64,000 nucleotides of DNA. Origin: Veillonella parvula. Its GTDB lineage: Bacteria > Bacillota > Negativicutes > Veillonellales > Veillonellaceae. The notes beneath the pieces were generated by a model. The model saw nothing but the letters and a program-made list of their open reading frames with translations. It was not told where the DNA came from and made no database searches. The DNA lies in the NCBI RefSeq assembly GCF_036456085.1, contig NZ_CP138632.1, positions 1,531,001-1,595,000 on the forward strand. The letters are read 5' to 3'. Shown here one piece after another: positions 14,598 through 54,703 of this stretch. The stretch's first letter is position 1. Each line of letters opens with the position of its first letter. The translations under genes and the position numbers were made by a program.

Positions 14598-14766
14598 GTT
14601 CTAAGTCCAATATAGTGTAACAATATGCACAAAGTCAATGAACATAACATTTAATCATAAGTACCAAAACTAAAGTTATAACTGAAAATCATATGCAATA
14701 ACTAAAATGCATGAGTTAAGAATTTAAGGATTAATGATATAATAAGTACTATCACGAGGAGGCATT

Positions 14767-35295: not shown

Positions 35296-35616
35296 TTATT
35301 GACAATCTACGGGTTCTAATGAAGCACAATGTGCAATAGAGGATAATACTTCATCCATCCCCTCACTAAGTTTTGCTGTACGCAAATCAACATCCATCTG
35401 TAAACGCAAGAAATACCCTTCCGAAACATCAAAGTATTTCGCTAAACGCAACGATGTATCTGCTGAAATAGATCGTGTACCATTCAATATTTCTTGAATC
35501 CGTGAAACAGGCACATGTATATCCTTAGCCAATCGATATGCAGATAGTCCTAATGGATCCATAAACTCTTCTTTTAATATTTCACTAATGGTAGGTGTAG
35601 GAATAAACTTTTCCAT
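35296..35616 (-). CDS. higA: HigA/VapI-family antitoxin
   Basis: 106 residues. The HTH of the HigA/VapI type is clear: TISEILKEEFMDPLGLSAYR, VSRIQEILNGTRSISADTS, LRLAKYFDVSEGYFLRLQ. It neutralises the HigB toxin upstream and probably represses the shared promoter through the palindrome at 35932-35958. It starts 17 bases after the toxin stop with GAGAGG upstream. Confidence 0.92.
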   Translation of the reverse strand: MEKFIPTPTISEILKEEFMDPLGLSAYRLAKDIHVPVSRIQEILNGTRSISADTSLRLAKYFDVSEGYFLRLQMDVDLRTAKLSEGMDEVLSSIAHCASLEPVDCQ

Positions 35617-35632
35617 ATTAATTTCCTCTCTA

Positions 35633-35917
35633 TTAATGATAATCTACAATTTCTACATCATAAAAACTACTACTATCTTTCACTTTAAAACACAGTCTAT
35701 ATTGACCATTAATCCGCAAACTATACTGACCAAATCGATCTCCTTGCAACAACTCCAAGCGATTACCTGGTGGCCAACGTAAATCTTGTAATGATTCAGC
35801 ATTATCTAACAATAGTAATTTACGAAGAGCTAACCTTTGTATAAACGGAGAAAAGCGTTTAGAAAAGCTTTGATAGTAAACTTTTTCTGTTTCCTTATCC
35901 TTAAATCCGATAATCAT
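35633..35917 (-). CDS. higB: HigB/RelE-family toxin
   Basis: 94-residue RelE-fold endoribonuclease of the classical HigB type: MIIGFKDKETEKVYYQ, LRWPPGNRLELLQGDR, QYSLRINGQYRLCFKV, VEIVDYH. The C-terminal basic and aromatic residues are those used for ribosome-dependent mRNA cleavage. Toxin first, antitoxin second, as usual for higBA. The pair is unrelated in sequence subgroup to the module at 453-1080. Confidence 0.93.
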   Translation of the reverse strand: MIIGFKDKETEKVYYQSFSKRFSPFIQRLALRKLLLLDNAESLQDLRWPPGNRLELLQGDRFGQYSLRINGQYRLCFKVKDSSSFYDVEIVDYH

Positions 35918-36273: not shown

Positions 36274-36990
36274 TTATAGCAAAAATGTAAGTCCCATTGC
36301 CACGAAGATGGCTGGCAAAAGGTTTGCAATACGTACTTTGCCAGGCCAGATGAGGTCGATACCAACGCAGAAAATCAGAATAGATCCAACGTAGGATAGG
36401 TTATCGATGGCACTAGGTGTCATCAATGGCGCTGCAATATGTGCCATAGCCGTAATGAGCCATTGCGTAATACCTACAGGAATAAAGGAGAACAGCGCCC
36501 CTTTACCCATAGAGGATACCATAACCATAACGATGATGCCGTCGAGGATGCCTTTTAAAAGTAATGTCTGATAATTTCCAGTAAGGCCATCTTGAATGGA
36601 ACCAAGTACACCCATAGCACCTACGGTAAACGTCAAAGATGCCGTGATAAAGGCGTGCGTAAACTTTGGATCACCAGCGTTGCCAGTGCGAGCTTTCACC
36701 CAGTCACCAAATACGGTAATCCAATGATTGAGGTCAATAATTTCGCCAATAACGGCACCTACAACCATGCTAATAATCATCAATAGAGGGCCCGTTGTTT
36801 GTAGAGATCCATTGACAATGACGAGCATATACTGCATGGCCCCGCTCATACCGAGGAGAAGCACGATAATACCGCTCACAATCATGAGCGTTTGCTTTAA
36901 ATTTTCTTTCATAAAGCGACCAAACGCGAGGCCACATAGGCTGCCAGCTATAATGAGGCCAATATTAATGGCCGTTCCCAAACCAATCAT
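36274..36990 (-). CDS. DUF554 family membrane protein
   Basis: 238 residues, about seven helices rich in Gly. GTAINIGLIIAGSLCGLAFG, TFTVGAMGVLGSIQDGLTG and LLKGILDGIIVMVM are the conserved DUF554 (YdfK-type) blocks. The family is a putative transporter or channel of unknown substrate. Length is usual. Confidence 0.92.
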   Translation of the reverse strand: MIGLGTAINIGLIIAGSLCGLAFGRFMKENLKQTLMIVSGIIVLLLGMSGAMQYMLVIVNGSLQTTGPLLMIISMVVGAVIGEIIDLNHWITVFGDWVKARTGNAGDPKFTHAFITASLTFTVGAMGVLGSIQDGLTGNYQTLLLKGILDGIIVMVMVSSMGKGALFSFIPVGITQWLITAMAHIAAPLMTPSAIDNLSYVGSILIFCVGIDLIWPGKVRIANLLPAIFVAMGLTFLL

Positions 36991-37194
36991 ATATTTCCCT
37001 TCTTTAATTGTGAAAGTAACACTATCAATTTACTTCAGTATAGCAATCATATCGAAATAAATCAATTTATATGGCATAAAATATATAATATGAAATTGGA
37101 TTAATTAAAGTTTTTTAGGACCATACATATAGCCTGATTAATGCTGCTATAGGTTTTCCTAATACAGTATGACTCCTTTTATAACATTATATAT

Positions 37195-37343
37195 AGCAAA
37201 AAGCCTCTATCCAATAAGGATAGAGGCTCTGTATAGTTTATAGCGTTGAGAGAGAACTAATGATAGACCCGCTTAGGAGAGAGAGAGTATATGTGTTTAT
37301 ATATAAAGCGGGCCGACATGAGATGAGTCGCTATCGCCTCATC
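37195..37343 (-). ncRNA. Candidate structured small RNA with a CU-rich loop
   Basis: A promoter-like pair TTGTTG (37373-37378) and TACACT (37350-37355), 17 bases apart, points left. The predicted RNA has a GATGAG/CTCATC hairpin, then GCCCGCTT/AAGCGGGT closing a loop that holds CTCTCTCTCTCC (anti-Shine-Dalgarno-like), and ends in a perfect terminator (AGCCTCTATCC/GGATAGAGGCT plus five T) at 37199-37229. No ORF or ribosome binding site. The terminator may alternatively belong to tag upstream. Confidence 0.5.
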
Positions 37344-37441
37344 GACTTTAGTGTACACCCAATTCCACATAACAACAAATTCAATTATGTAAACACAAGT
37401 ATGCATAAAAACTATTGTTAACTAATTTATACTTATCACCC

Positions 37442-38041
37442 TTACGCTTCATCGTCTACAGGTAACCGTACGATATCTGCTGTTTTATTAATCTCCTCAA
37501 AGCAAGGGCAGTCTTTACCGTGATCATTGATAAGGCCACTAGCTTGTAGATGCGAATAAATTGTAACAGGACCTACAAACTTAAAGCCCCTCTTCTTTAA
37601 GTCTTTACTGATCCGTGTAGATAAACCATTCTTTGTAGGAAAATGACCTTCTGGATGGTTTTCATAAATAATCGTTTTATGATTGGTAAACCCCCAAATA
37701 TAGTTACAAAACGAACCAAATTCAGATTGAATACGTTTAAAAGCAGCAGCATTACTTATCATAGCTTCAATTTTAGAGCGAGACTTAATCATGCCCTCTG
37801 TATTCATGATACGTTCGACATCGCTTTCACCATAAGCAGCCACCGTATCAATATCAAAATGATCAAAACATTCTCGAATGATGTCTCGTTTATTTAAAAC
37901 CGTAAGCCAGCTGAGGCCACATTGAAAGCTTTCGAGACAAAGATGTTCAAACTGAAGTTGATCATCATGAATTGGTCGGCCCCACTCATAATCGTGGTAT
38001 TCATGATATAAAGGCGTCGTCGGCCATTCACAAGTCGTCAT
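37442..38041 (-). CDS. tag: DNA-3-methyladenine glycosylase I
   Basis: 199 residues. Tag-family motifs: CEWPTTPLYHEYHDYEWG at the N-terminus (Cys and His zinc ligands), LESFQCGLSWLTVLNKR, EGMIKSRSKIEAMISNA, and the C-terminal NDHGKDCPC with the remaining ligands. It removes 3-methyladenine from alkylated DNA. The ATG shares a base with the stop of the upstream membrane protein (TGATG), so the two are translationally coupled, with GGAGGTG as ribosome binding site. Confidence 0.95.
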   Translation of the reverse strand: MTTCEWPTTPLYHEYHDYEWGRPIHDDQLQFEHLCLESFQCGLSWLTVLNKRDIIRECFDHFDIDTVAAYGESDVERIMNTEGMIKSRSKIEAMISNAAAFKRIQSEFGSFCNYIWGFTNHKTIIYENHPEGHFPTKNGLSTRISKDLKKRGFKFVGPVTIYSHLQASGLINDHGKDCPCFEEINKTADIVRLPVDDEA

Positions 38042-38538
38042 CACACACCTCCATGCGCCCATACGAGGACGTCATACATGAGCGCTACTACGAGGCCCAT
38101 TACGAGATGACCACCCACGTAAAATGGCACTAAATAATAAATGAATAAAAGTAAGGAATGCAAGGCTTTGCGGAGCCATACAATCGGCGTAGATGTGTCG
38201 TCACCTACCTTACTATCAAGCCAATTATGGACTGCGTAAATAGGCGTTCCTAGACGGCGAATCCAGTCTGGAACACGTACCCCAGGATTCAAACCAGGGC
38301 AATAGAAGATCACTAAGGGCAATGCCACCACATCAATGACGAGCAATAGCGTTAACATAAAAGCAAACCAATCTAATTCGCCTTCCCACGTGAAGGGTTG
38401 TGACATGAAACGGGCACCCCACAAATAGGCTTTGTATACGATATACGGTTCTAATAGCCATAATAAGGGCTTCACTACACTCATGGGACTACCTACACCA
38501 AACAAAAAATAATAAAAACTACGCATTTGCGTAGTCAT
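38041..38538 (-). CDS. Membrane protein of unknown function, coupled to tag
   Basis: 165 residues with about three to four hydrophobic segments and many aromatic residues (PMSVVKPLLWLLEPYIVYKAYLW, MLTLLLVIDVVALPLVIFY). Family not recognised. The exact start is uncertain: no clear Shine-Dalgarno before the first ATG, and an internal ATG at MSVVKPL has GTAGG upstream. Overlaps tag by one base. Confidence 0.65.
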   Translation of the reverse strand: MTTQMRSFYYFLFGVGSPMSVVKPLLWLLEPYIVYKAYLWGARFMSQPFTWEGELDWFAFMLTLLLVIDVVALPLVIFYCPGLNPGVRVPDWIRRLGTPIYAVHNWLDSKVGDDTSTPIVWLRKALHSLLLFIYYLVPFYVGGHLVMGLVVALMYDVLVWAHGGV

Positions 38539-41801: not shown

Positions 41802-43061
41802 TTATTGAGTTAATATATTAATCCATTCCATATACCACGGTATAAATACTGGGCTCTCTTCAAGTTTCTCCTTATAAGACCCTTCTTCTCGCCATTGTGA
41901 CTCTTTTCGTAATCTTGCCGCATCATCAAAGCCCACATATTCGATCATATCTCTCAGTTGTTTATGTGTATAAGATGTTTTACTTTCATCATAATTAATA
42001 CGATAACTGTAAACGTATACAGAATCTCTCACAACATGACGAAGATAGGATTCACTATTAGGCTTATAGGAATCAACTAAAGAGCCTGCAATCCCATTGT
42101 TCCATACTACTGCATACTGTGTAGGTGTGTCTAAATCATTATATTTATGTAAAAAATATAATGTTGGGATCTTAATAATCGTTACATCTGGCTTTTCTTT
42201 CTTGATTAAGCTATGTATTACCCGCATTTTAAATCCTGTATCCTCATAGGTTCTTACATCATATGTCTCGTCTTCCACAGTTTCACTGATGAGCTTAGCC
42301 GTTTTAGGAATACGATAGTTAAAATTACCCCAATGCTCAACATTAGTATAAGCATCTAATCCAGATAATGATTCGATAGATGGAATAATATAATTACTCA
42401 TCACCACTTCAGGCGCTTTATCTTGATATGGATCCTCTGTATTTACCCAACCGCCATAGGTAATGCCATAAGATGTATTTGTATCATTTGGTGTAAATTC
42501 CGTATACATTACATGGGCATTATTTGACATGAGCTTCCAAGATGTGTTCCGTAATCCTGGATACATATATTTTCCTTTACTTTCAGAATATTTATTAAGC
42601 TCTTTAGCATACGGTGGACCGACAACTAAAAACGCACTAAGGCTTCGAACAGCAAACAAGGGCCCTTGTTTTCCGGATGGAGACTCTACAACATCACCGC
42701 GTAAGCTAACATTTGGTACGGATAATCTGATATTCTTATCCCCTTCATGAAGCAACACAACTGTAGACTGCGAATAATCTGCAAGCTCCGAAGCCTTAAC
42801 AAAACCAGACCGTTCTCGATATAACTTATCCAATTTAGATGCGGGATTTACAGACTTCGATTCTACAAATTGAATATATGACTCTACCTCTTGCTCCGCC
42901 ACCTTATTAATATGTCGATAATTTTCATACGCATTAGCAGGAATACTCGCATCCGCCCCAGGCACAGGTGGTTGCCCGGCTGGCACTTCGATCTGTACAG
43001 CACTTACATTTATGGTGAAAGCAGTTGCTAGTGCCATCATAATTACACTTTTACGTAACAT
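41802..43061 (-). CDS. Exported protein, IPGAD paralog family
   Basis: 419 residues. Signal peptide MLRKSVIMMALATAFTINVS, then IEVPAGQPPVPGADASIP. It is clearly paralogous to the gene at 51236: the two share the signal region, MSNYIIPSI/MSNYVIPSI, FNYRIPK/FTYRIPK, VWNNG, HKQLRDMIEY/HIQLRNTVEY. Function unknown; a periplasmic or surface-exposed role is inferred from export. The start MLRKSVI has GAGAGGG upstream. The upstream palindromic element at 43091-43160 is shared with 51236 and 54131. Confidence 0.8.
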   Translation of the reverse strand: MLRKSVIMMALATAFTINVSAVQIEVPAGQPPVPGADASIPANAYENYRHINKVAEQEVESYIQFVESKSVNPASKLDKLYRERSGFVKASELADYSQSTVVLLHEGDKNIRLSVPNVSLRGDVVESPSGKQGPLFAVRSLSAFLVVGPPYAKELNKYSESKGKYMYPGLRNTSWKLMSNNAHVMYTEFTPNDTNTSYGITYGGWVNTEDPYQDKAPEVVMSNYIIPSIESLSGLDAYTNVEHWGNFNYRIPKTAKLISETVEDETYDVRTYEDTGFKMRVIHSLIKKEKPDVTIIKIPTLYFLHKYNDLDTPTQYAVVWNNGIAGSLVDSYKPNSESYLRHVVRDSVYVYSYRINYDESKTSYTHKQLRDMIEYVGFDDAARLRKESQWREEGSYKEKLEESPVFIPWYMEWINILTQ

Positions 43062-43090
43062 AGTACCCTCTCTCAATTTTTATAAAATAA

Positions 43091-43160
43091 ATAAGCACAA
43101 CCTTGTTAACATAAGTATACTATGCAGATAAGGCTGTGCCTATGATTAATAATTTTATAA
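43091..43160 (-). promoter_or_regulatory. Conserved palindromic upstream element, copy 1
   Basis: GCACAACCTTG and TAAGGCTGTGC flank CATAAGTATACTATG, so an outer inverted repeat surrounds an inner one that contains a TATACT -10 on the minus strand. Followed by a conserved TATGATTAATAATTTTATA. Nearly the same sequence occurs at 52492 and 54743, each time just before an exported-protein gene. Confidence 0.65.
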
Positions 43161-43210
43161 TTTAATATATAGGATTTACCTATATTAATATTTATAAGGT
43201 TCATCTCAAT

Positions 43211-43239
43211 TTGACGATATAAAATAACCTTACTATAAT
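43211..43239 (+). promoter_or_regulatory. Promoter of antisense RNA, module B
   Basis: TTGACG, 17 bases, TATAAT, as in module A. Confidence 0.78.
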
Positions 43240-43245
43240 ATAGAT

Positions 43246-43360
43246 AGATAGTCAGACGAGTAGTGCCGTCAGGCTCATCTCTAAATCAGTAAAACATTAG
43301 GAAATGGCCTTTCAGTTATCTAGTTACACTAGGCAACGGAGGGCTATTTGTCTTTTGTAA
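43246..43360 (+). ncRNA. Antisense antitoxin RNA, module B
   Basis: Predicted transcript from the promoter at 43211, beginning GATAGTCAGACGAG and ending in the hairpin around 43310-43345 that is shared with the toxin 3' end. 3' end approximate. Confidence 0.55.
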
Positions 43361-43445
43361 GACAAATAAGTGCTATTAAAGCTCCAAAAGCAATGACAAT
43401 AGCCAGTACTTGTAACAGGAGCATGATTATTTCATAATCGCTCAT
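43344..43445 (-). CDS. 33-residue hydrophobic type I toxin, module B
   Basis: MSDYEIIMLLLQVLAIVIAF and the same tail as module A (LICLTKDK); three residues differ. Promoter TTGTAT (43530-43535)/TATAAT (43507-43512) with 17-base spacing. The module sits between an exported-protein gene and the CRISPR array. Confidence 0.75.
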   Translation of the reverse strand: MSDYEIIMLLLQVLAIVIAFGALIALICLTKDK

Positions 43446-43572
43446 AGACTTATCCCTCCCTTCAAAAACGAAGAGAGGCCCAACCTCGTCTAACTATCCT
43501 AAAACTATTATAGAGCGAACTAATATACGATACAATAAGCATCATATTATATAAATATATAAATTAACAAAT

Positions 43573-43610
43573 AAAGCCGAGCTACTAAAACAAGGTAGCT
43601 CGGCTTTTTA
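43573..43610. terminator. GCCGAGCTA terminator hairpin, left flank of CRISPR-Cas
   Basis: AAAGCCGAGCTAC and GTAGCTCGGCTTTTT. It lies 18 bases past the array end in the direction of array transcription and separates it from toxin module B. A near-identical hairpin at 50563-50603 flanks the other side of the CRISPR-Cas locus. Confidence 0.8.
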
Positions 43611-43627
43611 TGTCGTTTCACAAATTT

Positions 43628-44059
43628 ATAATCTACTAAATTCTAATTACATTACTCTCAAACCAAATCTTTAAAGAAGGATCTAATTTGCTCGTTTTAG
43701 AGATTTACAGAATTACACTACTCTCAAACTTGTTTAAGCACTTAGACTTACAACATCTTGTTTTAGAGGTTTACAGAATTACACTACTCTCAAACGATCG
43801 AAACAATAACGGTATTCCTGATAAAGTTTTAGAGATTTACAGAATTACACTACTCTCAAACGATCAAATTGATTCTATTATTGGTGTATTAGTTTTAGAA
43901 GTTTACAGAATTACACTTTTCTCAAACAACATATAGTCTTTTAAGCGTGCTTCGTAAGTTTTAGAAGTTTACAGAATTACACTACTCTCAAACAAGGGCA
44001 TCTCTGATTTGCGTAATATGTCCGTTTTAGAAGTTTACAGAATTACACTACTCTCAAAC
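43628..44059 (-). CRISPR. Type II-A CRISPR array: 6 full repeats, 1 degenerate terminal repeat, 6 spacers
   Basis: 36-bp repeats begin at 43694, 43760, 43826, 43892, 43958 and 44024, with a degenerate copy at 43628-43663. All six spacers are exactly 30 bp. On the minus strand the repeat starts GTTTGAGAGTAGTGTAATTC. Repeats vary at positions 9-10 (AGA, AGG, AAG on the plus strand) and one has CTTTTCTC. The degenerate copy at the far end from csn2 marks the trailer, so the array is read on the minus strand, same as the cas genes. This agrees with the plus-strand tracrRNA. Confidence 0.97.
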
Positions 44060-44123
44060 CCCAAATTAAATTTGAGGCTCAAGAGTAACTCGGGCTACCA
44101 CCAGGTGTAATTCTGCATGCTCT

Positions 44124-44798
44124 TTAAATAACACAGAAATCATTATCTAAAATATACCCATTTATAAGGCTTTTATCAAGATTTTCTTTATTAAGAGATC
44201 CAGTTGTTAGACAAACTAACCGTAATTGTCGACTCAACATATTTTGATAAAATGTATTAAGTTCTTCATCATTTAATACTAGATCTAAATTTACAACAAT
44301 ATATAACATAGGAGATAATAGTGTGTCTACCACTTCTATATAGGACATTAGATCCATAATATCGCCTTTACGATTAAACTCAAAATTAAAACTCCCTAAT
44401 TTAATTAGTTCTGCAGTCCCGATTTCGAGTTTATGTTGAATCGATAAAGGATATCCAAACTCTAAAGAATAATAAAAAGAATGTAGTCGATTAACAATAT
44501 CGGCTACCTCTTCTGTCATCAATAAAGCTTCTTTAGATAGCTGGTTTTGTAATTTAGTTAATAAAGTTTTACTATTTACATCCACATATAACGGATTCAG
44601 TATTATATGACTATATTTATCTATACTAAAAGCTTTATCCTTGTCATTTAAGATCCACGGCCCTTCACCACCATTACACTGTATATCAAGCTCTGTAACC
44701 ATACGTCGAAATACTTTACAATCTTCAAAGGATATCACCGTTACCTTATCATGGGATATTTCAAACTCCAATATAGAATCTTGATATAGTAATTTCAT
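44124..44798 (-). CDS. csn2: Csn2, type II-A spacer-acquisition protein
   Basis: 224 residues. The fold pattern (LEFEISHDKVTVISFEDCKVFRRMV, then a helical middle and YIVVNLDLVLNDEELNTFYQ, ending NGYILDNDFCVI) corresponds to Csn2, the toroidal DNA-end-binding ATPase-like protein needed for adaptation in type II-A. It overlaps cas2 by four bases (ATGA). Its presence makes the locus II-A rather than II-C. Confidence 0.88.
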   Translation of the reverse strand: MKLLYQDSILEFEISHDKVTVISFEDCKVFRRMVTELDIQCNGGEGPWILNDKDKAFSIDKYSHIILNPLYVDVNSKTLLTKLQNQLSKEALLMTEEVADIVNRLHSFYYSLEFGYPLSIQHKLEIGTAELIKLGSFNFEFNRKGDIMDLMSYIEVVDTLLSPMLYIVVNLDLVLNDEELNTFYQNMLSRQLRLVCLTTGSLNKENLDKSLINGYILDNDFCVI

Positions 44799-45115
44799 AT
44801 CACGAGCACCCTCTCTGTGGAGTCTATAACTTCACTTTGCTTATCTCCAACTACAATTTCCATTCTTGAAAACTGCTTTTCTGTAACAGTTAACATAAAC
44901 AAGCTGCCACTAGGTGGCTTATTTTTGCGTACATGCTCCATGATAAGATTGGCACTAGTTGTATTAAGAACTAACTTTGAATATACAGACTCTTGTAACA
45001 TAAGAAAGCCAGATACAATTAAATACTTTCTAAAACTCCTATATTCTTTTCGATCTTCCGATGTTAACGTCGGCAAGTCAAACATTACTAGTATTCTCAT
45101 AAATCTATAGCTCAT
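44795..45115 (-). CDS. cas2: CRISPR-associated Cas2
   Basis: 106 residues: MSYRFMRILVMFDLPTLTSE carries the beta-1 strand with the metal-binding aspartate and the usual II-A N-terminus, then KEYRSFRKYLIVSGFLMLQESVYSK. It pairs with Cas1 in the integrase complex. Its start overlaps the cas1 end by 11 bases and its end overlaps csn2. Confidence 0.95.
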   Translation of the reverse strand: MSYRFMRILVMFDLPTLTSEDRKEYRSFRKYLIVSGFLMLQESVYSKLVLNTTSANLIMEHVRKNKPPSGSLFMLTVTEKQFSRMEIVVGDKQSEVIDSTERVLVI

Positions 45116-45980
45116 ATTCTATAAACCTAATTTGATTAACATCTTGAGTACGTAATGCATCAAATACACTTTTACAATAAATACGAATTGCTGCACTAAA
45201 TGTTTGAATAGTATCATTAATCTTTACATCTTCAGATAAAAGTTCTATAAGTGAAAGCTTTACATTACGGTCGAATTCTGTAGGTTTTAACTTGATAACT
45301 ACTGCATCAACAAATCCACGTAATGGTTCCATTAAATCAGATCCTAGATTATACGGATTAAATTGATTACAGTGATTTAGCCCTAGCTGTGTAATATATC
45401 CTAAGGATAAAATTTCTCGATTTACTGCTGAAAGTAATATAGCATATCCATAATTAAGGGCTGCATTAATAGGATTATCTTGGTCCCGAGAAAATGATTT
45501 TCCAAACAAGGCATTGAAATATACCTTTGCGGCATGCCCTTCACGTTGAGTTTCATCGTTTAAGGTCAACTCATCTAGATATTGATATAACAAATCTGCC
45601 TCAGCCAACTCTTGATGCTTCAATAAGTCGGCTTGATTCATAATTTTATGCCGTACAATTTCAGTCCAAATATAAGCTTGTACATCTTTAGACCACTCAG
45701 CTTGCTCCCGGCAGCGTTTACTACTATTATGACTACCGTGTAATGGAAGAACCTCACTAGCAGGGTTGCGTTTCTCATCACAAAAGACAATAGCTACCTT
45801 CTTTTTAATCAATTCATTTAGGAGTACGGCGGTGAGACTCACCGCCGTAGATTCAATAATCAACATATAGATTTCATCAATATATACTTTAGTCGTCTCA
45901 AAGTCCTTGCGAATAATCATGTAATTCATTTTAAAGTCTAACTTCGAACGACTACCTATGACTACTGTGCGCCAACTCAT
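45105..45980 (-). CDS. cas1: CRISPR-associated Cas1 integrase
   Basis: 291 residues. MSWRTVVIGSRSKLDFKMNY and the YGYAILLSAVNREILSLGY region with nearby GLNHCNQFNPYNLGSDLMEP give the catalytic Glu/His/Asp triad of Cas1. It inserts new spacers with Cas2. The start MSWRT is chosen for AGGGG upstream, 28 bases after cas9. Confidence 0.95.
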   Translation of the reverse strand: MSWRTVVIGSRSKLDFKMNYMIIRKDFETTKVYIDEIYMLIIESTAVSLTAVLLNELIKKKVAIVFCDEKRNPASEVLPLHGSHNSSKRCREQAEWSKDVQAYIWTEIVRHKIMNQADLLKHQELAEADLLYQYLDELTLNDETQREGHAAKVYFNALFGKSFSRDQDNPINAALNYGYAILLSAVNREILSLGYITQLGLNHCNQFNPYNLGSDLMEPLRGFVDAVVIKLKPTEFDRNVKLSLIELLSEDVKINDTIQTFSAAIRIYCKSVFDALRTQDVNQIRFIEYEL

Positions 45981-46008
45981 AATAACCCCTAGCACTAATG
46001 CCCACTCT

Positions 46009-49000
46009 TTAAACTATAGTGATTTCATTAGAATATAGACCAGTAATAGATTGATTTATAATTTTAAATTCATCTAAAGTATGAATTTTAACCCCAATTG
46101 TTGAACGAGAAGCAGTTATCCCTAAAGCTTTTACATCAAATGTAGTTTTACTATTAGTAAGTAAATTCAATACCTCAAGCAGATAAATACTTTGCTCCTC
46201 TAACGTCATGTTCATAAATTTACTACGTCCTACCGTAGATAGCTCATCTACTTTATTCCCCTTCATTTTCATGTATAAAGGGGTACGCAATTTACTCATA
46301 AGATAATCATATACAATAAGTCCATCCTTATCAGTTATAGAAACTATATTGGTAGAACCCTCATTATATATGCGGGTTGTTACTGTAGATGCTTTAATAT
46401 TATTATTGTCTTTATGTAGTAAAGCAAACTTCTCAAGCACCTTAATATATACAGCGATATTTGCAGGTACTACTACTTCTACCGCATTATCAATATAGAT
46501 ATTGCTATTAGTCTTCCCGCCCAAATAGTAATAGAACCCATTAACCTTAACAAGTTGATTAATACATAGCTTTCTATAAATAATAGAGATATCTTTCGCT
46601 TGTGGAGTGATAGAGGCTACATAATCAATCAAATCTTGATCTGTTATATTTCGATTTGTTAAATAAATCGGTAGTGGCACAATCTCTTTAACAACTTCTC
46701 CCTTTTTACCAATATATTGAACAATAATAGAATAGGCATTCTTAATTTTTGTCATGCCACCATATTTAGTTACATCTGCAAATACGCTGGATTTTGTTTT
46801 CATTCCAATATAAGCGCCATCTTTAGCCTTCGCTGCGACAGTGGCTTTATATACAGTTGCATCAGCTAAGGCACCAGATTGTTCTAGCAATCGTTTCGTA
46901 ACACGAACATCATTACTAGTCATCATTTTGTTAACTGTATCCATGCTTGTTTTTACATCCCAAGCTTTACCATCTTTAGCATTAGTACATTTGACGTCAT
47001 AGTTGAACATCTTCGCCAGATTATATGTGCGATTAGCCCCATTCTTTTTGAAAAATGCACGGAAGTTACGTGTAAATTTCTCATGGTACACATTACCTAC
47101 TACGATATTTAAATATGCATCTTTAGCGTGATGATGATGGTTTAATGAGCGGACCTTAATAAAGTTATTATCATGGCGGAAATCCGTTACATTCTCAGCT
47201 TTTACAAAGACTACATCAATATCCGGGTAAAGACGACGCAACAATGTTGTAGCAGCCTTAACAGATTGATTAGTTTCTACTAGTTGACGAGCAATAAAGC
47301 CACTTAAATCATCAGCTGTAAGTGGTGTAATGCGAGTAAGGCGCTCATATTTCCGTTCACTAATAAGACCTTGTTGCTTTAAGAATATCCAGAATGCCTT
47401 TTGTGCCTTTTGAATTTCTTTACTAATTGGATATGTATCTGATTTCTGAGCATTTGCAGTTCGTTTACATAACACTAAGTTATCAAAACTATCATCCTTG
47501 GTAAGGCTACGAGGATAAATATGATCAATATCATAGTTATCTGTATTTAACTGACTTAAATCTATAACTTCACCAGTATAAGCACAGCGTCCCATTTGAG
47601 TGTAGTATAAATAAAGCTTTTTACTTCTTAAAGCCGCATCATCATATTTAGCTAGTTCTGATTTTAACCCTCCAAACTCTTCATTCGTAAGTCCACTTAA
47701 TAATGCATCATCTTTTTTTATTGCTGCATATAAATCTGATAATCGTTTTTGGCGAGAATCTTTTTTCTTTTTCTCCGCTTTATTTGACCGTGTTACTTCT
47801 ACAAAGATACGAGCCGGTAAAGCTTTTTTAATATGTACAATTTCATCAACGATGCGCAATGCTTGCCATACCGCACGTTTAACAGCAGGTGAAAGCGCTA
47901 AATCATCGATAATATCATGAGGGTTCACGATTTGACCTTCTGTTAATTTATCATTTATCTCTTGAATACGTTCCATAAATAAAAATCTATCGCCTAATAG
48001 TTCCATCAAGTTATAGCTAAAATCACGCATTGCTTCAATAATGGTTACAGAAGTACCGTCTCCAGCCTTATCACAGCCATCGATACCATTTAGTAATTTC
48101 TTAGAAAGACGTCCCCAATCTCGATATCTTAATTTTGACAATTTTTTGATAGCTTCATCATCAAGGCACGAAGCGAATTTTTTACGCAACGTTTCACGTA
48201 ACATTTTTTTACTTTCACCAAAGATAGTAATATCCGTAATAATCTCTTCGGCCATAGACAAATCAAAATTATTACCAAGAATACGAACCATATCACGATA
48301 AGAGGCTAAATCATTTTTAATTTCTCCATCAAGACCTGTAATCTCAGGTTTATGCTTCTCAGGGATATAATTATTATCCTTTAAGAATTGCTCTATACGA
48401 TTTTTAGTCATCTTCTTATGGTCTTGCTTAAATACGGCCTTAATAAGATGCGCTTTTACCTTTGTCTCTAATGGCTTCCCATCAATACGCACATTATTTA
48501 GCTCGTTAAGCAACATGAACTCACTATATAAAAGAGATGATTTAGGCAGCACATCTTCACCTAACAAATAAGTACATTTATTCGTAAGGTTTTTAATAAA
48601 AGCAGCTGCTGATTTTTCCCGATCAATTTTATCATCAAAATTCCACGGAGTTACTCGTCCAGATGCTTTCCGAACTGCCCAAGCAAAACCACCATTATCT
48701 ACATTATGAGAAGTGTTTAAAGGCCCTACGTAATACGGAATGCGAAACTCAAGCATTTTAATAAGTTTCTCTGCTACAGAAAAACCATCCGCCACTTCAT
48801 TTAAAAATGGGAATTTAGGACCACATTTAGCAAGAATTACTTTAAGTTCTTCTAAATGTAATTGATACGGAATTACGCCATTATCTTTAATCCGTTGTAG
48901 TGGCAATAAGGTTTGTAATTCAATTTCACTAAGAATATACTCTTTATCCTTAGAATCTGGTAATCCCTCTACTACCTTTTTAGTGTACTTATAAAAATCT

Positions 49001-50205
49001 TCACGGTTACAACTCGTTTCCTCTGTACGACCTTGTTTAATATAGTGCACATAGTTATGCAAACCTTTTTCATCAACTTTGAACATCGCATTGTAAATGC
49101 TTCTATCAGACTTTAGTAAAGATTTCAATATAGCTAAATCATCTTTATGCTTGTTAAAAGCTTTTACCTTAGATTCAGAAATAGTAAGACCGGGTTCTTT
49201 AATGGACAGGAGTATAATAGCATCATATACAGATTTACAATCATCAATAATATAAATCTCATCACTCCAAGCTTTAGCTAGCTCATCTCGTTTATCGTCA
49301 TATGTGTCTCCTGTTATTTGAAGCTTTTTAAGGTCTTCTTCTAACTCTTCTACAGAGCCGAACAAGTCTATAAGACTAGCATTTAAACCTAATACTAAAT
49401 TTGCAAATGCTTTAAGTCTTTTTTTATCTTCTTTGACTTGATCTTTTTGAGTTTTACCAGAAGCATTCACTTCATCAGTAATTATATATGTATCAACAAG
49501 ACGTTCTATAGTCTTTGCTTTATCAGATTTTGTTTTCCCTGTTTCCATAAGGATTTGACCGATAGAACCAATTGCAGCACTAGAATCAAAACAATTGAAC
49601 GTAATATTTTCTAAGGCTTGTTTAAGCACATCATCAAGCGTTGAAGCATTTGAATCAAATGAAGCCCCTTCATAGAGAAAATTACCACGGTATTTTAAAA
49701 TATGATGTACTGCCAAGAATAACTTACGAATATCATAAGTACCATCTTTCATTAACTCTGCACGCAAATGATAAATAGTAGGATACGCTTTATAATAATC
49801 TTGATCAGTATAGTTTTTATCGATAAACAAAATATGTTTAGAACTATGACCGGTCGTTTTATCCTCATAGTGGTACTTACTTTCACGAAGGCGCATAAAG
49901 AATGTAGGATCCACCTGTGCCATAGCATCAGCAAATAATTCTTCTAATAGTTTTAAGCGTAATTTACGACGTTCTAAACGACGACGCATAGACCGGAATC
50001 CACGGCGTGCCACAGCGGATTCTCCCTCATCAAACAAACGACTTCCCCACATTTTATGAGATCGAAATTTCAGCAACTCATAGGCCTTATTGGTTACTGC
50101 CCAGCCCACTGAGCTTGTACCAATATCTAACCCCACAAAATAATCTTTAATTGGATATCCTTTCAAATGACTTGAAATAAGTTGGTTCGATGCTTGCGTT
50201 TCCAT
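46009..50205 (-). CDS. cas9: Cas9 effector nuclease, type II-A
   Basis: 1398 residues. RuvC-I YFVGLDIGTSSVGWAV with D27, the arginine-rich bridge helix RRGFRSMRRRLERRKLRLK (about residues 60-80), RuvC-II IFVEVTRSNKAEKKKK near 798, HNH with DIDHIYPRS (His at about 894), and RuvC-III HHHHAKDAYLN near 1025. Both nuclease sites look intact. Length and the associated repeat sequence resemble the Treponema denticola-type branch of II-A. The start METQASN is chosen because AAAGGAGAGG lies upstream. crRNA:tracrRNA-guided double-strand cutting is the expected role; the PAM is unknown. Confidence 0.97.
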   Translation of the reverse strand: METQASNQLISSHLKGYPIKDYFVGLDIGTSSVGWAVTNKAYELLKFRSHKMWGSRLFDEGESAVARRGFRSMRRRLERRKLRLKLLEELFADAMAQVDPTFFMRLRESKYHYEDKTTGHSSKHILFIDKNYTDQDYYKAYPTIYHLRAELMKDGTYDIRKLFLAVHHILKYRGNFLYEGASFDSNASTLDDVLKQALENITFNCFDSSAAIGSIGQILMETGKTKSDKAKTIERLVDTYIITDEVNASGKTQKDQVKEDKKRLKAFANLVLGLNASLIDLFGSVEELEEDLKKLQITGDTYDDKRDELAKAWSDEIYIIDDCKSVYDAIILLSIKEPGLTISESKVKAFNKHKDDLAILKSLLKSDRSIYNAMFKVDEKGLHNYVHYIKQGRTEETSCNREDFYKYTKKVVEGLPDSKDKEYILSEIELQTLLPLQRIKDNGVIPYQLHLEELKVILAKCGPKFPFLNEVADGFSVAEKLIKMLEFRIPYYVGPLNTSHNVDNGGFAWAVRKASGRVTPWNFDDKIDREKSAAAFIKNLTNKCTYLLGEDVLPKSSLLYSEFMLLNELNNVRIDGKPLETKVKAHLIKAVFKQDHKKMTKNRIEQFLKDNNYIPEKHKPEITGLDGEIKNDLASYRDMVRILGNNFDLSMAEEIITDITIFGESKKMLRETLRKKFASCLDDEAIKKLSKLRYRDWGRLSKKLLNGIDGCDKAGDGTSVTIIEAMRDFSYNLMELLGDRFLFMERIQEINDKLTEGQIVNPHDIIDDLALSPAVKRAVWQALRIVDEIVHIKKALPARIFVEVTRSNKAEKKKKDSRQKRLSDLYAAIKKDDALLSGLTNEEFGGLKSELAKYDDAALRSKKLYLYYTQMGRCAYTGEVIDLSQLNTDNYDIDHIYPRSLTKDDSFDNLVLCKRTANAQKSDTYPISKEIQKAQKAFWIFLKQQGLISERKYERLTRITPLTADDLSGFIARQLVETNQSVKAATTLLRRLYPDIDVVFVKAENVTDFRHDNNFIKVRSLNHHHHAKDAYLNIVVGNVYHEKFTRNFRAFFKKNGANRTYNLAKMFNYDVKCTNAKDGKAWDVKTSMDTVNKMMTSNDVRVTKRLLEQSGALADATVYKATVAAKAKDGAYIGMKTKSSVFADVTKYGGMTKIKNAYSIIVQYIGKKGEVVKEIVPLPIYLTNRNITDQDLIDYVASITPQAKDISIIYRKLCINQLVKVNGFYYYLGGKTNSNIYIDNAVEVVVPANIAVYIKVLEKFALLHKDNNNIKASTVTTRIYNEGSTNIVSITDKDGLIVYDYLMSKLRTPLYMKMKGNKVDELSTVGRSKFMNMTLEEQSIYLLEVLNLLTNSKTTFDVKALGITASRSTIGVKIHTLDEFKIINQSITGLYSNEITIV

Positions 50206-50231
50206 AAGTCCTCTCCTTTGGAAATTAATAA

Positions 50232-50260
50232 TTGACATTCATCAAATGCTTAACTATACT
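50232..50260 (+). promoter_or_regulatory. tracrRNA promoter
   Basis: TTGACA at 50232-50237, 17 bases, TATACT at 50255-50260; start expected near 50267. It lies in the cas9 upstream region and points away from cas9. Confidence 0.78.
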
Positions 50261-50266
50261 ATAATT

Positions 50267-50389
50267 AATCCAACTAGTTTTGGAGGTTTACAGAATTACA
50301 TTACGAGTTCAAATACAAATTAATTTACAATGCCTTCGGGCTGCCCGACGTAGGGCACCTACTCTCAATTCTTCGGAATTGAGTTTTTT
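50267..50389 (+). ncRNA. tracrRNA
   Basis: An anti-repeat at 50277-50314 (GTTTTGGAGGTTTACAGAAT and on) matches the array repeat. AAUUACAUUA pairs fully with UAGUGUAAUU of the crRNA repeat, and UCAAAU with GUUUGA, leaving a bulge between, as in functional duplexes. Downstream is a GCCTTCGGGC/GCCCGACGTAGGGC stem-loop region, and the gene ends in a strong terminator CTCAATT-CTTCGG-AATTGAG plus six T at 50364-50389. About 123 nt. Confidence 0.92.
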
Positions 50390-50624
50390 ATTGCCAAAAT
50401 TTACCATTTAAACGTGATATATAATCTATAAGTCGCCAAACACCGTATAATTAACTTCATTTTAGCATAAAACAATAAATTAATTCATATGTTTTTCATA
50501 AATCTTATAATTATACTCATAATCGAGTACATAAAAGTTAATAAATAGTTATGTTTATAAGTAAAGCCGAGCTACTCAAAATTTAACGTAGCTCGGCTTT
50601 TTCGTCTCTTTTATTCTAATATAA
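50390..50624. other. Gene-free AT-rich stretch with terminator, right flank of CRISPR-Cas
   Basis: No ORF. The GCCGAGCTA hairpin (AAAGCCGAGCTAC/GTAGCTCGGCTTTTT) at 50563-50603 terminates the gene at 50625 on the minus strand, and is nearly identical to the one at 43573. Confidence 0.75.
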
Positions 50625-51200
50625 TTATCTATAAATCATAATTTTACTTACTTTATCGCCTTTTTGTTCAAATTGTATGCCATGCATCATATCCGTACGA
50701 TAGCGATATTTCCCATAAAACCATCGATTATTAGAGTCTACTAAATCAGGTCTACCGTATACATTAAGGACTTTTCGCATGGAGTCGCCTACGGCAATGC
50801 CTCTATGTGTTGTGGCATCACGATTCTCGATCATCATATAGGTAACAACTGACTCTACACCATCCATTTTAAAACTCCCAAAGGTAACACCACCATAGGT
50901 GAGTCCTCTACTAGTTTCTTTAGTAGGCTGTCCCAAACTTGCTTTCACACTATCAAAGGTATTACCTAATGAAACACCAAGAACCATCATATCCTCGTCT
51001 GGTAAGTTAGCACCTACAAGTTGTCCTCCCGCATAATGAGTATACTGCTCAGCTTTCGGCCAATCGTAAGACTGTTTCGCTGCATTTGTTTCAAGGCGAT
51101 CCCACGTTTTGCTCAACCAACTTGCATCTGTCACATAACTATAACCACTTACCAATTGCAGGCCGATAACAAGCCCCGTAATCATGTATTTTCTTTTCAT
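50625..51200 (-). CDS. Exported protein with a C-terminal VYGRPD domain
   Basis: 191 residues with a signal peptide (MKRKYMITGLVIGLQLVSGY). The C-terminal half has RGIAVGDSMRKVLNVYGRPD, NNRWFYGKYRYRTD, and a preceding related half-domain VLGVSLGNTFDSVKASLGQP, suggesting an internal repeat of a small SmpA/copper-oxidase-like beta module. Function unknown. It follows the paralog at 51236 by 35 bases and is co-transcribed. A truncated copy is at 38863. AGGAGAGAG upstream. Confidence 0.72.
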   Translation of the reverse strand: MKRKYMITGLVIGLQLVSGYSYVTDASWLSKTWDRLETNAAKQSYDWPKAEQYTHYAGGQLVGANLPDEDMMVLGVSLGNTFDSVKASLGQPTKETSRGLTYGGVTFGSFKMDGVESVVTYMMIENRDATTHRGIAVGDSMRKVLNVYGRPDLVDSNNRWFYGKYRYRTDMMHGIQFEQKGDKVSKIMIYR

Positions 51201-51235
51201 GTTCTCTCTCCTGAACGATCTTATAAACAACTGAA

Positions 51236-52456
51236 TTACATTTTATCTTTACTTTGCATACGGATTACTTTATTCCGCAGTGTCTCAACATTTGCAAAAT
51301 CAGAATATTCTACCGTATTACGCAGCTGAATATGAGAATATGGCGTAGCCCCATCAATATAAACTAAGCTCATTATATATACATTCTTGTCATCACGTAA
51401 GAATCGATGCATTAAAGACGTTTTTCCTGGTTGATAGTTATCTACTAAAAGACTAGGAACGCCATTATTCCAAACAGATGCTGATTGAATAGGTGCATCA
51501 CCTATGATTTGACTTTCTGGCTTTATTTCCGAAATCTCGTCAATAAATGAATAGATATATTTATCATCTACTTTTACAGGTTTCTTAGCTACAATAAGTC
51601 GGATACCTGATCCACGATAGTCTCTCATTTCGGCAGAGTCCTTTAACGATTTCTGTGCTATTAGTTTGAGCCCTTTAGGAATACGATATGTGAAATTATC
51701 CCATTGAATACTTTCACTATAATGATCCATGTCATCTAACGATCGAATCGACGGAATTACATAATTACTCATAACGTGCTCGAGCTTGCCGGTAACAGGC
51801 TGATTTTTGTAGCTAAGACCTACCATATATTCTTGATTCGGTTGATTAAATAAACCAACTACAGCAACCATAGCAGGCGTATTCTCACCGAAAGACTCAG
51901 TTTCAATAGCCCATTTACCATGTGTGATACCCGGATATGTAAACTCCCCTTTTCGCTCTGATTTTAATTTGCCTAATGCATCATCATAATTCTGTTTTGT
52001 ACCAATCGCAAAAAATATGGAATTCTCTCTTACAATAGATAAACGTTCACCATCACTGCGTTTTGGGTAATACTTACTTGCTAATAGTAGTCCAGGAACA
52101 GATGCCCGAATGTTATTACGCTCATCATGCAACAACACAACTGCAGACTCATTAACAAGTAAGTCCATCAACTTCTCCGAATCGCTTGCTATCTGATTGA
52201 CTTCATCTCGTGTTAGTCCCCAGTCAGTTACATACATGTCCATGCGTTTTTTAGATTCAGAATGTAATTTTATAACATCACTAGCTCCTACATTGCTCAA
52301 GCTACCGGCCCGATAGTTTTCATAGGCATTGGCAGGGATATTCGCATCTGCCCCTGGTATAGGTGGCTGTCCTGCTGGCACTTCTATCTGTACAGCGCTT
52401 ACATTCATGGTGAAAGCAGCTAGTACAGCCATGATAATCAAACTTTTACGTAACAT
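51236..52456 (-). CDS. Exported protein, IPGAD paralog family
   Basis: 406 residues. Signal peptide MLRKSLIIMAVLAAFTMNVS and mature start IEVPAGQPPIPGADANIP, nearly identical to the gene at 41802, then diverging with conserved islands (MSNYVIPSIRSLDDMDHY, FTYRIPKGLKLIA, SVWNNGVPSLLVDNYQPG). First gene of a two-gene unit with 50625. The conserved palindromic element lies upstream at 52492-52560. Role unknown. Confidence 0.8.
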   Translation of the reverse strand: MLRKSLIIMAVLAAFTMNVSAVQIEVPAGQPPIPGADANIPANAYENYRAGSLSNVGASDVIKLHSESKKRMDMYVTDWGLTRDEVNQIASDSEKLMDLLVNESAVVLLHDERNNIRASVPGLLLASKYYPKRSDGERLSIVRENSIFFAIGTKQNYDDALGKLKSERKGEFTYPGITHGKWAIETESFGENTPAMVAVVGLFNQPNQEYMVGLSYKNQPVTGKLEHVMSNYVIPSIRSLDDMDHYSESIQWDNFTYRIPKGLKLIAQKSLKDSAEMRDYRGSGIRLIVAKKPVKVDDKYIYSFIDEISEIKPESQIIGDAPIQSASVWNNGVPSLLVDNYQPGKTSLMHRFLRDDKNVYIMSLVYIDGATPYSHIQLRNTVEYSDFANVETLRNKVIRMQSKDKM

Positions 52457-52491
52457 AAAACCCTCTCTTTTTTCTCTCACATTACAACATA

Positions 52492-52560
52492 AATAAGCAC
52501 AACCTTATTAGCATAAGTATACTATGTAAACAAGGCTGTGCCTATTATTAATAATTTTAT
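52492..52560 (-). promoter_or_regulatory. Conserved palindromic upstream element, copy 2
   Basis: GCACAACCTTATTAGCATAA and its dyad partner ending AAGGCTGTGC around TATACT, followed by TATTATTAATAATTTTATA. Same arrangement as at 43091 and 54743. Confidence 0.65.
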
Positions 52561-52615
52561 AATTTAGTATATGTATGATATATCTATAATTGGTATATAT
52601 AAGGTTTATCTCCAT

Positions 52616-52644
52616 TTGACGATATATCCCTTTATCCCTATAAT
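52616..52644 (+). promoter_or_regulatory. Promoter of antisense RNA, module C
   Basis: TTGACG, 17 bases, TATAAT; the same as the other three modules. Confidence 0.78.
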
Positions 52645-52651
52645 ATAAGTA

Positions 52652-52765
52652 GATAGTCAGACGAGTAGTGACGTCAGGCTCATCTCACAAACAAATAACA
52701 TGTAGAAATGGCCTTTTCGTTTTATCTAATTTCCGAAGAAACGAAGGGCTATTTTGCTATTTCTA
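52652..52765 (+). ncRNA. Antisense antitoxin RNA, module C
   Basis: Predicted from the promoter at 52616; begins GATAGTCAGACGAG. The terminator stem region (GGCCTTTTCGTTT...GAAACGAAGGGCT) has diverged from modules A and B but keeps compensating bases. 3' end approximate. Confidence 0.55.
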
Positions 52766-52850
52766 GACAAATAAGCGCCACAAGTGCTCCAAAGGATATC
52801 ATGACTGATAAAATCCCAAGGATAATCATAATGATTTTATAACCACTCAT
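52749..52850 (-). CDS. 33-residue hydrophobic type I toxin, module C (most diverged)
   Basis: MSGYKIIMIILGILSVMISF, then GALVALICLEIAK. The length (33 residues), the IIM start block, the FGAL-ALICL core and the promoter layout are kept, while the acidic residues near the N-terminus and the TKDK tail are lost. It could be a separate specificity or a decaying copy. Promoter TTGTAT (52933-52938)/TATAAT (52910-52915). Confidence 0.68.
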   Translation of the reverse strand: MSGYKIIMIILGILSVMISFGALVALICLEIAK

Positions 52851-52975
52851 AAGCAACCCTCCCTTCAAAAACGAAGAGAGGCCCAACCTCGCCTAACTAT
52901 CCTAAGTCTATTATAGAACGAACTAATATGCGATACAATAAGCATTATATTATATAAATATACGAATAAACTAAT

Positions 52976-53016
52976 AAAAGCCAAGTTATTCCTAACTATG
53001 AATAGCTTGGCTTTTA
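52976..53016. terminator. Hairpin homologous to the GCCGAGCTA terminator
   Basis: AAAGCCAAGTTATT and AATAGCTTGGCTTTT; a diverged copy at the same position relative to toxin module C as the hairpin at 43573 has to module B. Confidence 0.7.
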
Positions 53017-53106
53017 CATTATGTAAATAAGTTAAAAATATATCAGAAATCTAATATGCGTATTTAGGAGCTTTCAAAAGCTAATGAAATATCAGTCCAA
53101 TAATAA

Positions 53107-53547
53107 TCAGAATCGGAGCCAGGTAAGAAACACAAAAATAACAATAGCTAAAACAATAATAGTGCCATACATTAATATCCCTAGCTTTATAACAAAATCT
53201 ATACTATAAAAGATAAATGTCCCCACTAAAGATTGGTCTTTCAAAGAAAAGTACCAAGCTTTCACTCTATAATAAATTTTTGGTTTATCAAACGCTGGAT
53301 ATAGTTTCTCATGCCACAAAATAAGCCACGGTAAAACCCAAATATTCCCGAAGGTAAATATCAATACTGGCAAATAATCCCTTAATGGATATGCTTCTAA
53401 TACATATCGATCATAGAGCAATGTATAGAAAGCCCAAATAGAGATTCCCCAAATAAGTAAAAGCACAAGCTTTATTAGGAGTCCAAAAACAAGTTTTATC
53501 TTTAATCTATGTTTATTCACTGTTTTAACCACTCTAGTGCCATACAT
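53107..53547 (-). CDS. Small membrane protein, function unknown
   Basis: 146 residues, three to four hydrophobic stretches (about 18-45, 55-80, 105-145) with many aromatic residues and a positively charged N-terminus. No family recognised. It begins a few bases after the stop of the exported-protein gene upstream, so it is the last gene of the 54131-53553-53107 unit. The start codon is uncertain. Confidence 0.6.
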   Translation of the reverse strand: MYGTRVVKTVNKHRLKIKLVFGLLIKLVLLLIWGISIWAFYTLLYDRYVLEAYPLRDYLPVLIFTFGNIWVLPWLILWHEKLYPAFDKPKIYYRVKAWYFSLKDQSLVGTFIFYSIDFVIKLGILMYGTIIVLAIVIFVFLTWLRF

Positions 53548-53552
53548 AAATA

Positions 53553-54122: not shown

Positions 54123-54130
54123 CATCCACC

Positions 54131-54703
54131 TCATTGGGCCACAATATCATCAAAATGCTGCTGATATACAGATACAAACATAGCATCCGCTATATCATAT
54201 ATAATAGTATTATTACGGTTAAGTGGGACCTTACGCGTATCGTTTACATAATGCATTGGCTTTGTCGCCCCATCAAATGTATATCTCGCTACATCTACCC
54301 CTGTCATAGCTAAACCAGACTTACTTTCACTAGCCTCAATCAAAGCCAGCATAGACGGGCTCGGATTCATGATACGAGACGAATGAATAAGTGTCGCTAA
54401 CGAATAGTTAGTATCATAATCCACGGTGAGCTGTCTCTCATTGATGATAGATTGATAAGACGTATCCATCACAATATAGTAAGTCCCGCGCAAGGAATAC
54501 TGTGGCGGTGCATAGCGTAGGGCCTCAATCGAATAAGTGTTTAAATAGATATACAAGCCACCACTCTCTATGGGCCCATTAATCGACTGAGAATAAACAA
54601 GCTTAAACTGTGGCGACGTTTTCAATTCCTGATAAGTAATTGCCTCTGTAGGCATGGTGAAAGCCAGCAACACAAGAGCTAGCATCAAAATACGTTGAAT
54701 CAT
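54131..54703 (-). CDS. Exported protein, function unknown
   Basis: 190 residues with a signal peptide (MIQRILMLALVLLAFTMPTE) and a mature part beginning ITYQELKTSPQFKLVY. The conserved element at 54743-54812 lies upstream, as for the paralogs at 41802 and 51236, so it probably shares their control. GAGAGG before the ATG. First gene of a three-gene unit. Family not recognised. Confidence 0.7.
   Translation of the reverse strand: MIQRILMLALVLLAFTMPTEAITYQELKTSPQFKLVYSQSINGPIESGGLYIYLNTYSIEALRYAPPQYSLRGTYYIVMDTSYQSIINERQLTVDYDTNYSLATLIHSSRIMNPSPSMLALIEASESKSGLAMTGVDVARYTFDGATKPMHYVNDTRKVPLNRNNTIIYDIADAMFVSVYQQHFDDIVAQ

Follow-up and report, generated by a model that had tools for sequence, protein, structure and literature searches.

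The csRNAs of streptococci carry unpaired anti-Shine-Dalgarno (anti-SD) and anti-AUG sequences, with CAU serving as the anti-AUG in 53 of 61 of them according to a passage of the source report (PMC3091779), and several related csRNAs are described in an excerpt of a second report as acting additively (PMC4507080). LhrC1-5 of Listeria comprise five almost identical RNAs of 111–114 nt that are under LisRK envelope-stress control and were, in the excerpt available, independent of Hfq in that system (PMC4132741). NmsR of Neisseria is a further case of sibling regulatory small RNAs (sRNAs), for which the title of the report names metabolic switching (PMC5362039). Here we describe a unit, sRNA1, located in a 64,000-nucleotide stretch of the Veillonella parvula genome (contig NZ_CP138632.1, positions 1,531,001 to 1,595,000; hereafter 'the window'), together with a CU-rich sibling, sRNA2, in the same genome. 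Its sequence features suggest, with a probability that we put at roughly 60%, that sRNA1 is a trans-acting non-coding sRNA of about 150 nt with two modules that would block translation starts.

Organization, fold and conservation of sRNA1

The proposed transcript lies on the minus strand (37198..37346), with its 5' end placed near 37346-37343 from the position of a −10-like element and its 3' end at a T run. It comprises a first hairpin with GATGAG/CTCATC arms (hairpin 1, 37322..37343), a second, GC-rich hairpin with stem arms GGCCCGCTT/AAGCGGGTC and a 31-nt loop containing CACAUAUACUCUCUCUCUCC (hairpin 2, 37266..37314), a linker, and an intrinsic terminator of the form GCCTCTATCC-TTATT-GGATAGAGGC-TTTTT, with a 10-bp stem and a 5-nt loop (37227-37198). 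A weak sigma-70-like promoter, TTGTTG-17-TACACT (37350..37378, minus strand), can be read off the sequence, with its −35-like hexamer at 37378-37373 and its −10-like hexamer at 37355-37350, separated by 17 nt. The original prediction had described this promoter-like pair, both hairpins and the terminator without naming a strand; all are present, on the minus strand. A plus-strand reading of the unit was dropped, the terminator inverted repeat having no T run on that strand.

Two CU runs, each preceded by a CAU triplet, mark the two proposed modules of the putative RNA. The first run (CTCTCTCTCTCC, 37287-37276) is located in the loop of hairpin 2 and belongs to module 1 (CAU-AUA-CUCUCUCUCUCC, 37276..37293), a candidate anti-AUG plus anti-SD element; the second (UUCUCUCUC, 37256-37248) is located in the linker and belongs to module 2 (CAU-UAG-UUCUCUCUC, 37248..37262). 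The CU-rich loop had been recognized in the original prediction, which overlooked the linker run and the CAU before both runs. The complement of such a module is GAGAGAG-spacer-AUG, that is, a ribosome site plus a start codon. Both modules (here CAU-AUA-CUCUCUCUCUC and CAU-UAG-UUCUCUCUC) keep their CAU and CU run in all seven sRNA1 sequences, despite differing spacers and one 6-base loss. The two runs are predicted to be 0.71–1.00 unpaired in all seven (0.99–1.00 for module 1 and 0.71–1.00 for module 2, scored over the CU runs, with the CAU triplets not scored separately), against sequence means of 0.41–0.52; a third short UC stretch, found in three of the sequences, is predicted to be 51% unpaired.

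The fold of positions 37195-37350 has a z score of −4.65, and none of 200 shuffled sequences folded as well. RNAalifold, applied to the seven sequences, returned three helices, and the structure that we counted (minus one isolated pair) contains 30 pairs. Five of these are changed on both sides (two, one and two per helix), a number reached by 6 of 500 shuffles and by none of six slid controls, which have zero such pairs; these counts rest on seven sequences from few clades, and hence on few events, and the shuffles ignore relatedness. The alignment has 99.0% of its cells paired and a covariation score of 0.213, neither of which was reached in 500 shuffles; further pair types (10) did not exceed the shuffles, of which 495 in 500 were as high. 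In hairpin 1, two of the six pairs are changed on both sides, in three of the seven sequences. In hairpin 2 the corresponding number is one of nine (C-G to U-A in one sequence), with 96.8% of cells paired and the two outermost pairs each broken in one sequence; the terminator has two such pairs and 100% of its cells paired. Compensatory changes, the lack of which the original prediction had named as telling against its candidate RNA, are present in all three helices. A conserved structure with a predicted-exposed pairing region, which is a feature of trans-acting anti-SD sRNAs, is what these models indicate for sRNA1.

DNA searches located sRNA1 in 7 of 14 Veillonella genomes, with a single copy in the genome analyzed here. 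When its covariance model was run against 28 genomes of the family, scores of at least 166.6 bits were obtained only in the same seven, and the best score elsewhere was 34.4 bits; four weak matches that were read (L245, L257, L246 and L249) proved to be terminator-like hairpins without long CU runs and were rejected. An exact-pattern scan of named genomes gave seven loci, four of them in Veillonella (V. parvula SKV38, V. rogosae, V. infantium and V. sp. T11011-6); the other three, outside the genus, have no CU run and were taken as chance. The gene for DNA-3-methyladenine glycosylase, tag, adjoins sRNA1 in all seven carrier genomes, and no paired CU runs were found beside tag in species without sRNA1 (seven tag loci, six besides its own, with 1.5-kb flanks).

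Mean pairwise identity over the seven sequences is 0.86 across the sRNA1 body, against 0.82 in the 5' flank (37381-37420) and 0.75 for the promoter stretch between them. Past the terminator it is 0.24 (37111-37195, with gaps counted as differences), and further on 0.65; judged from these alignments, the conservation contrast is clear on the 3' side only. The −10-like sequence GGTGTAYACT is kept in all seven, and by eye three of them have 2 nt more between the −35 and −10 elements.

The CU runs are rare in this genome. In a 464-kb sample (the window together with twenty 20-kb stretches of the same genome), CT/TC alternations of at least 9 bases occur at seven places, one in sRNA1, two in sRNA2 and four elsewhere, and the pattern CTCTCTN{4,34}TCTCTCT has four matches in the whole 2.2-Mb genome, all at the two RNA loci. 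The backward pattern gave 3 + 3 matches, recorded without their places, and reads the same CU runs, so that it is not an independent control; in the 464-kb sample all five of its matches fall at the two RNA loci.

In an Rfam search of the whole window, the sole match at gathering score was a cobalamin riboswitch (14423-14598, minus strand, 102.6 bits), with none at sRNA1; each of the five matches at sRNA1 up to an E value of 10 is on the plus strand and falls well short of its gathering score. The tag gene (37442..38062, minus strand; PF03352, E 3.8e-71) ends about 96 nt from the proposed sRNA1 start on the same strand, and a gene for a DUF554 protein (36274..36990, minus strand; PF04474, E 1.8e-63) lies downstream. 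Farther along, at 35296-35917 (minus strand), a HigB-like toxin gene (PF05015) is followed by a helix-turn-helix antitoxin-like gene (PF01381).

The sibling sRNA2 and candidate targets

The paired-run pattern also identified sRNA2, at L039 915-1090 (plus strand there; G000:C1 about 2133914-2134090, G000 being the genome analyzed here). It is preceded by two-component-system genes, one for a histidine kinase with HisKA and HATPase_c domains and one for a response regulator with Response_reg and Trans_reg_C domains, and is followed by a gene for a trypsin-like protease with a PDZ domain (HtrA-like). DNA searches found it in 12 of the 14 Veillonella genomes, and its covariance model, run with stricter filters on 61 genomes of the order, scored at least 106 bits only in those 12; matches in four other genomes (E 0.001–0.02) were taken as weak. 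Rfam gave 14 matches at sRNA2, all below cut-off. Its fold has a z score of −8.55. In a structure alignment of 11 of the 12 copies (that of genome G001, aligned in the wrong orientation, was left out), 11 of 37 pairs are changed on both sides across 10 distinct rows; as many were reached in a single one of 500 shuffles, slid controls give 0–2, and further pair types did not exceed the shuffled values (406 of 500). In all 11 aligned sequences its CU runs are predicted to be 0.72–1.00 unpaired, and CAU precedes the third of the three runs in each.

The two RNAs share an identical 19-base element, CACAUAUACUCUCUCUCUC, and their best local alignment scores 38, compared with 29 for the best of 300 shuffles. 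An exact match to these 19 bases elsewhere in the genome, considered at one stage as a perfect target mRNA, is in fact the same-sense element of sRNA2; the complement of the element is followed within 40 nt by the starts of frames of at most 52 aa (nine genomes read). Upstream of the sRNA2 −10 element (L039 about 855-875) is a direct repeat, TTTAAG-N5-TTTATA, with an 11-base period, variants of which can be made out by eye in every aligned Veillonella copy but that of G001. From its sequence, this repeat is a possible response-regulator site.

If sRNA1 acts as we propose, CAU would pair with the AUG of a target and CUCUCUC with a GAGAGAG SD site, leaving ribosomes unable to start; several modules per RNA, and two RNAs, would provide redundancy. 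The original prediction had stated that genes nearby use GAGAGG-type sites, and GAGAGAG/GAGAGG-type sites were indeed found. The pattern GAGAGAG-N{2,11}-ATG has 18 matches in this genome, of which 5 are antisense to the two RNAs, 6 lack a frame longer than 60 aa and 7 are plausible starts, with GAGAGAG located 3–8 nt before ATG. For the choice of starts, the anti-SD letters were assumed and not read off the 16S gene of this genome. The exported label applies to six of the seven plausible starts but to 57 of the 403 genes sampled (binomial p 4.9e-5), although three of the six are neighbors in one cluster and so not independent, and the label is a crude hydrophobicity rule that calls a histidine kinase exported. 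The six encode a member of the LptC family, a secretion protein of the ShlB/FhaC family, a 435-aa protein and three proteins of the window, the last four without a Pfam family; the seventh, labelled membrane, is an OppC-like permease.

The three window candidates are genes on the minus strand for exported proteins of 419 aa (41805..43061, start site GAGAGAGGGUACUAUG), 191 aa (50625..51200, GGAGAGAGAACAUG) and 190 aa (54131..54703, GAGAGAGGUUUUUAUG). Using a duplex program that ignores the folding of either RNA, we obtained a predicted duplex of −21.8 kcal/mol between the sRNA1 loop and the SD and AUG of the first, −22.5 kcal/mol between the linker and the second, and −14.2 to −17.6 kcal/mol for the third, for which a matching 190-aa protein with a GAGAGAG start is present in three other Veillonella genomes. 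Across nine chosen genes the loop segment gave predicted energies of −10.9 to −24.3 kcal/mol and spanned the AUG in six. The candidates fall within a cluster of exported-protein genes (41805-54703, minus strand), some of them paralogs by eye and several with GAGAGAG(G) starts; four of its proteins were searched and have no Pfam family.

Weighing sRNA1 as a trans-acting regulator

The covarying helices, the predicted-exposed CU runs and the GAGAGAG/GAGAGG sites nearby support the trans-acting anti-SD sRNA put forward in the original prediction, and sRNA1 may be regarded as a well-supported candidate for an sRNA of known functional kind and new sequence family, with a sibling. Several observations nevertheless weigh against this reading. 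The promoter-like pair is present but weak, its hexamers matching the consensus at only 7 of 12 positions, and a consensus scan did not list it. (The terminator is likewise absent from the listing of that scan, we think since its rule allows the T run to be absorbed into the stem.) sRNA1 is absent from 7 of the 14 Veillonella genomes; two of the three clear CU runs of sRNA2 are not preceded by CAU; and by eye no upstream site is common to the two RNAs. The duplex energies, as noted, take no account of folding. The bias towards exported genes is weaker in other species, with clearly cytosolic genes among those that have GAGAGAG starts: 6 of 14 are exported in G005, 3 of 13 in G006 and 5 of 18 in G002.

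The last counts depend on what was dropped, namely 7, 9 and 6 matches without a 60-aa frame in G005, G006 and G002, respectively, together with the sRNA places themselves and one place in G002 (C10:692671); one 60-aa frame in G002 was counted as cytosolic, whereas a borderline 60-aa frame was dropped in G000, which by the rule used for G002 would stand at 6 of 8. Pooling the four genomes gives 20 of 52 exported (p 1.3e-5 versus 57 of 403, with the background measured in one genome and orthologs not independent). The multi-genome places are those among the matches listed, which run as far as part-way into G008. Counts of GAGAGAG-N{3,9}-ATG, self-matches included, are not clearly different between carriers of sRNA1 (16, 25, 27, 26, 33, 21 and 16) and genomes without it (7, 27, 16, 17, 19, 13 and 29).

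The target prediction called for earlier produced the start-site duplexes described above, but a test of duplex energies over the 403 genes was mixed. Of the four sRNA segments, two separated exported from cytosolic genes (p 0.0014 and 0.023), and the other two gave no exported signal (p 0.22 and 0.49), which counts on the negative side; reversed segments gave p values of 0.063–0.44. Also unfavorable is the number of exported genes in the top 20, which was 4–6 for the real segments versus 3–7 for reversed ones and 1–4 for six shuffled ones. For the loop segment, the single clearest outcome concerned multi-span membrane genes (p 0.00065), a trend that also appeared with the plain anti-SD (p 0.015) and with the reversed loop (p 0.005).

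The most direct competing account treats the unit as the end of the tag mRNA, its 3' untranslated region plus terminator, with no separate RNA or with one cut from the tag message. The short distance from the tag stop on the same strand, with no terminator listed between, and the constant adjacency of tag in the carriers agree with this, but a terminator needs neither CU runs nor CAU, and both are kept in all seven sequences while the spacers vary. With a −10-like GGTGTAYACT also kept upstream, and a sibling that is not downstream of tag, we regard this account as unlikely. Another possibility is that an RNA-binding protein lands on the CU runs, the RNA being a sponge or a carrier that pairs with no mRNA. 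Short motifs repeated in exposed parts of both RNAs would suit a protein too, and in genomes in which no Hfq was detected another protein may act; the retention of CAU before both sRNA1 runs despite spacer change is, however, what pairing with SD and AUG predicts, and GAGAGAG start sites exist as partners, so that pure protein binding appears quite improbable.

A coding function seems more improbable still. A short peptide beginning MSARFIYKHIYSLSPKRV... (ATG at 37319-37317) might be made, alone or from a dual-function RNA: its frame is open for 20–38 codons in six of the seven genomes, a 6-base deletion keeps the frame, and four of the five substitutions in the first 17 codons are at third positions (by eye, one deviating genome apart). 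Yet in one of the seven a 2-base deletion leaves only 6 codons ahead of a stop, and the C-terminal end varies. In G010 the sequence ahead of the ATG and the anti-SD give a duplex energy of −6.3, but in the other six genomes this site is very weak (−1.2 to −2.4, compared with a gene median of −8.4 and a 90th percentile of −5.0). We continue to favor sRNA1 as a trans-acting, non-coding RNA.

Comparison with described regulatory RNAs

Among the top-ranked Veillonella and Negativicutes titles of a partial, open-licence literature, none names a trans-acting Veillonella sRNA. A structured-RNA screen with Veillonella motifs names the ilvD and potE motifs in the passages available (PMC8632094), and other Veillonella RNAs appear in a metatranscriptome study of periodontitis (PMC7160235, in part); sRNA1 is not described in those passages. 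The main text of a V. parvula biofilm paper mentions neither sRNA, small RNA nor Hfq (PMC7549365).

The Pfam Hfq profile (PF17209) has no match in any of the 14 Veillonella genomes, though a divergent Hfq could escape it; of 14 named genomes that served as a control, five gave a hit, among them E. coli and B. subtilis. If sRNA1 is what we propose, a base-pairing regulator in a diderm Firmicute without detectable Hfq would offer a test bed for Hfq-free sRNA action, and for outer-membrane control in such cells.

The csRNAs have an unpaired region complementary to the SD site and start codon, much as is predicted for sRNA1, and their combination of anti-SD and anti-AUG (CAU) is found as two modules in all seven sRNA1 sequences. 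They have one such region between two stem-loops, whereas sRNA1 and sRNA2 have CUCUCUC runs in more than one module per RNA. Both groups can be connected to two-component systems, the csRNAs by belonging to the CiaRH regulon and sRNA2 by adjoining such genes plus an HtrA-like gene. The CiaR site of the csRNAs, TTTAAG-N5-TTTAAG, was not seen at either promoter by eye (no motif scan was run): sRNA1 has TTTACA-N5-GAATTT upstream instead, and the TTTAAG-N5-TTTATA repeat of sRNA2 is at least about 30 nt upstream of its −10. As to sequence homology with known csRNAs, Rfam returned nothing on the minus strand at E values up to 10, with no check of which csRNAs it holds. Streptococci belong to another class of Firmicutes than Veillonella.

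LhrC also resembles the pair in having several CU-rich pairing sites (two clear runs in sRNA1 and three in sRNA2). In place of five near-identical copies, however, there are here two RNAs that differ in both length and sequence and align best over one 19-base element, with sRNA1 itself single-copy; neither RNA has an Rfam match at gathering score. LhrC is under LisRK envelope-stress control, and in Veillonella gene order around sRNA2 alone points that way. NmsR, compared by description, shares the presence of sibling sRNAs and, going by the title of the report, switches metabolism.

A role for the pair in an envelope-stress response can be suggested more weakly than the pairing itself, because sRNA2 sits between two-component-system genes and an HtrA-like gene and because the genes with the strongest GAGAGAG starts here mostly encode exported or envelope proteins. 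Envelope targeting is put forward only as a lead, because the bias in other genomes is weaker, the energy test is mixed and the genes are not independent. It is conceivable, if rather doubtful, that in the Hfq-lacking, two-membraned Veillonella a two-component system and HtrA drive sibling RNAs whose anti-AUG plus anti-SD modules shut down outer-membrane and exported-protein synthesis in envelope stress; the arrangement would then be an independent counterpart of the sigma-E sRNAs of enterobacteria, of CiaRH and the csRNAs, and of LisRK and LhrC. Because one defining feature of each group is missing here (for the csRNAs as judged by eye only), we do not file sRNA1 and sRNA2 as members of either the csRNAs or LhrC, and by analogy see them as resembling both in their logic.
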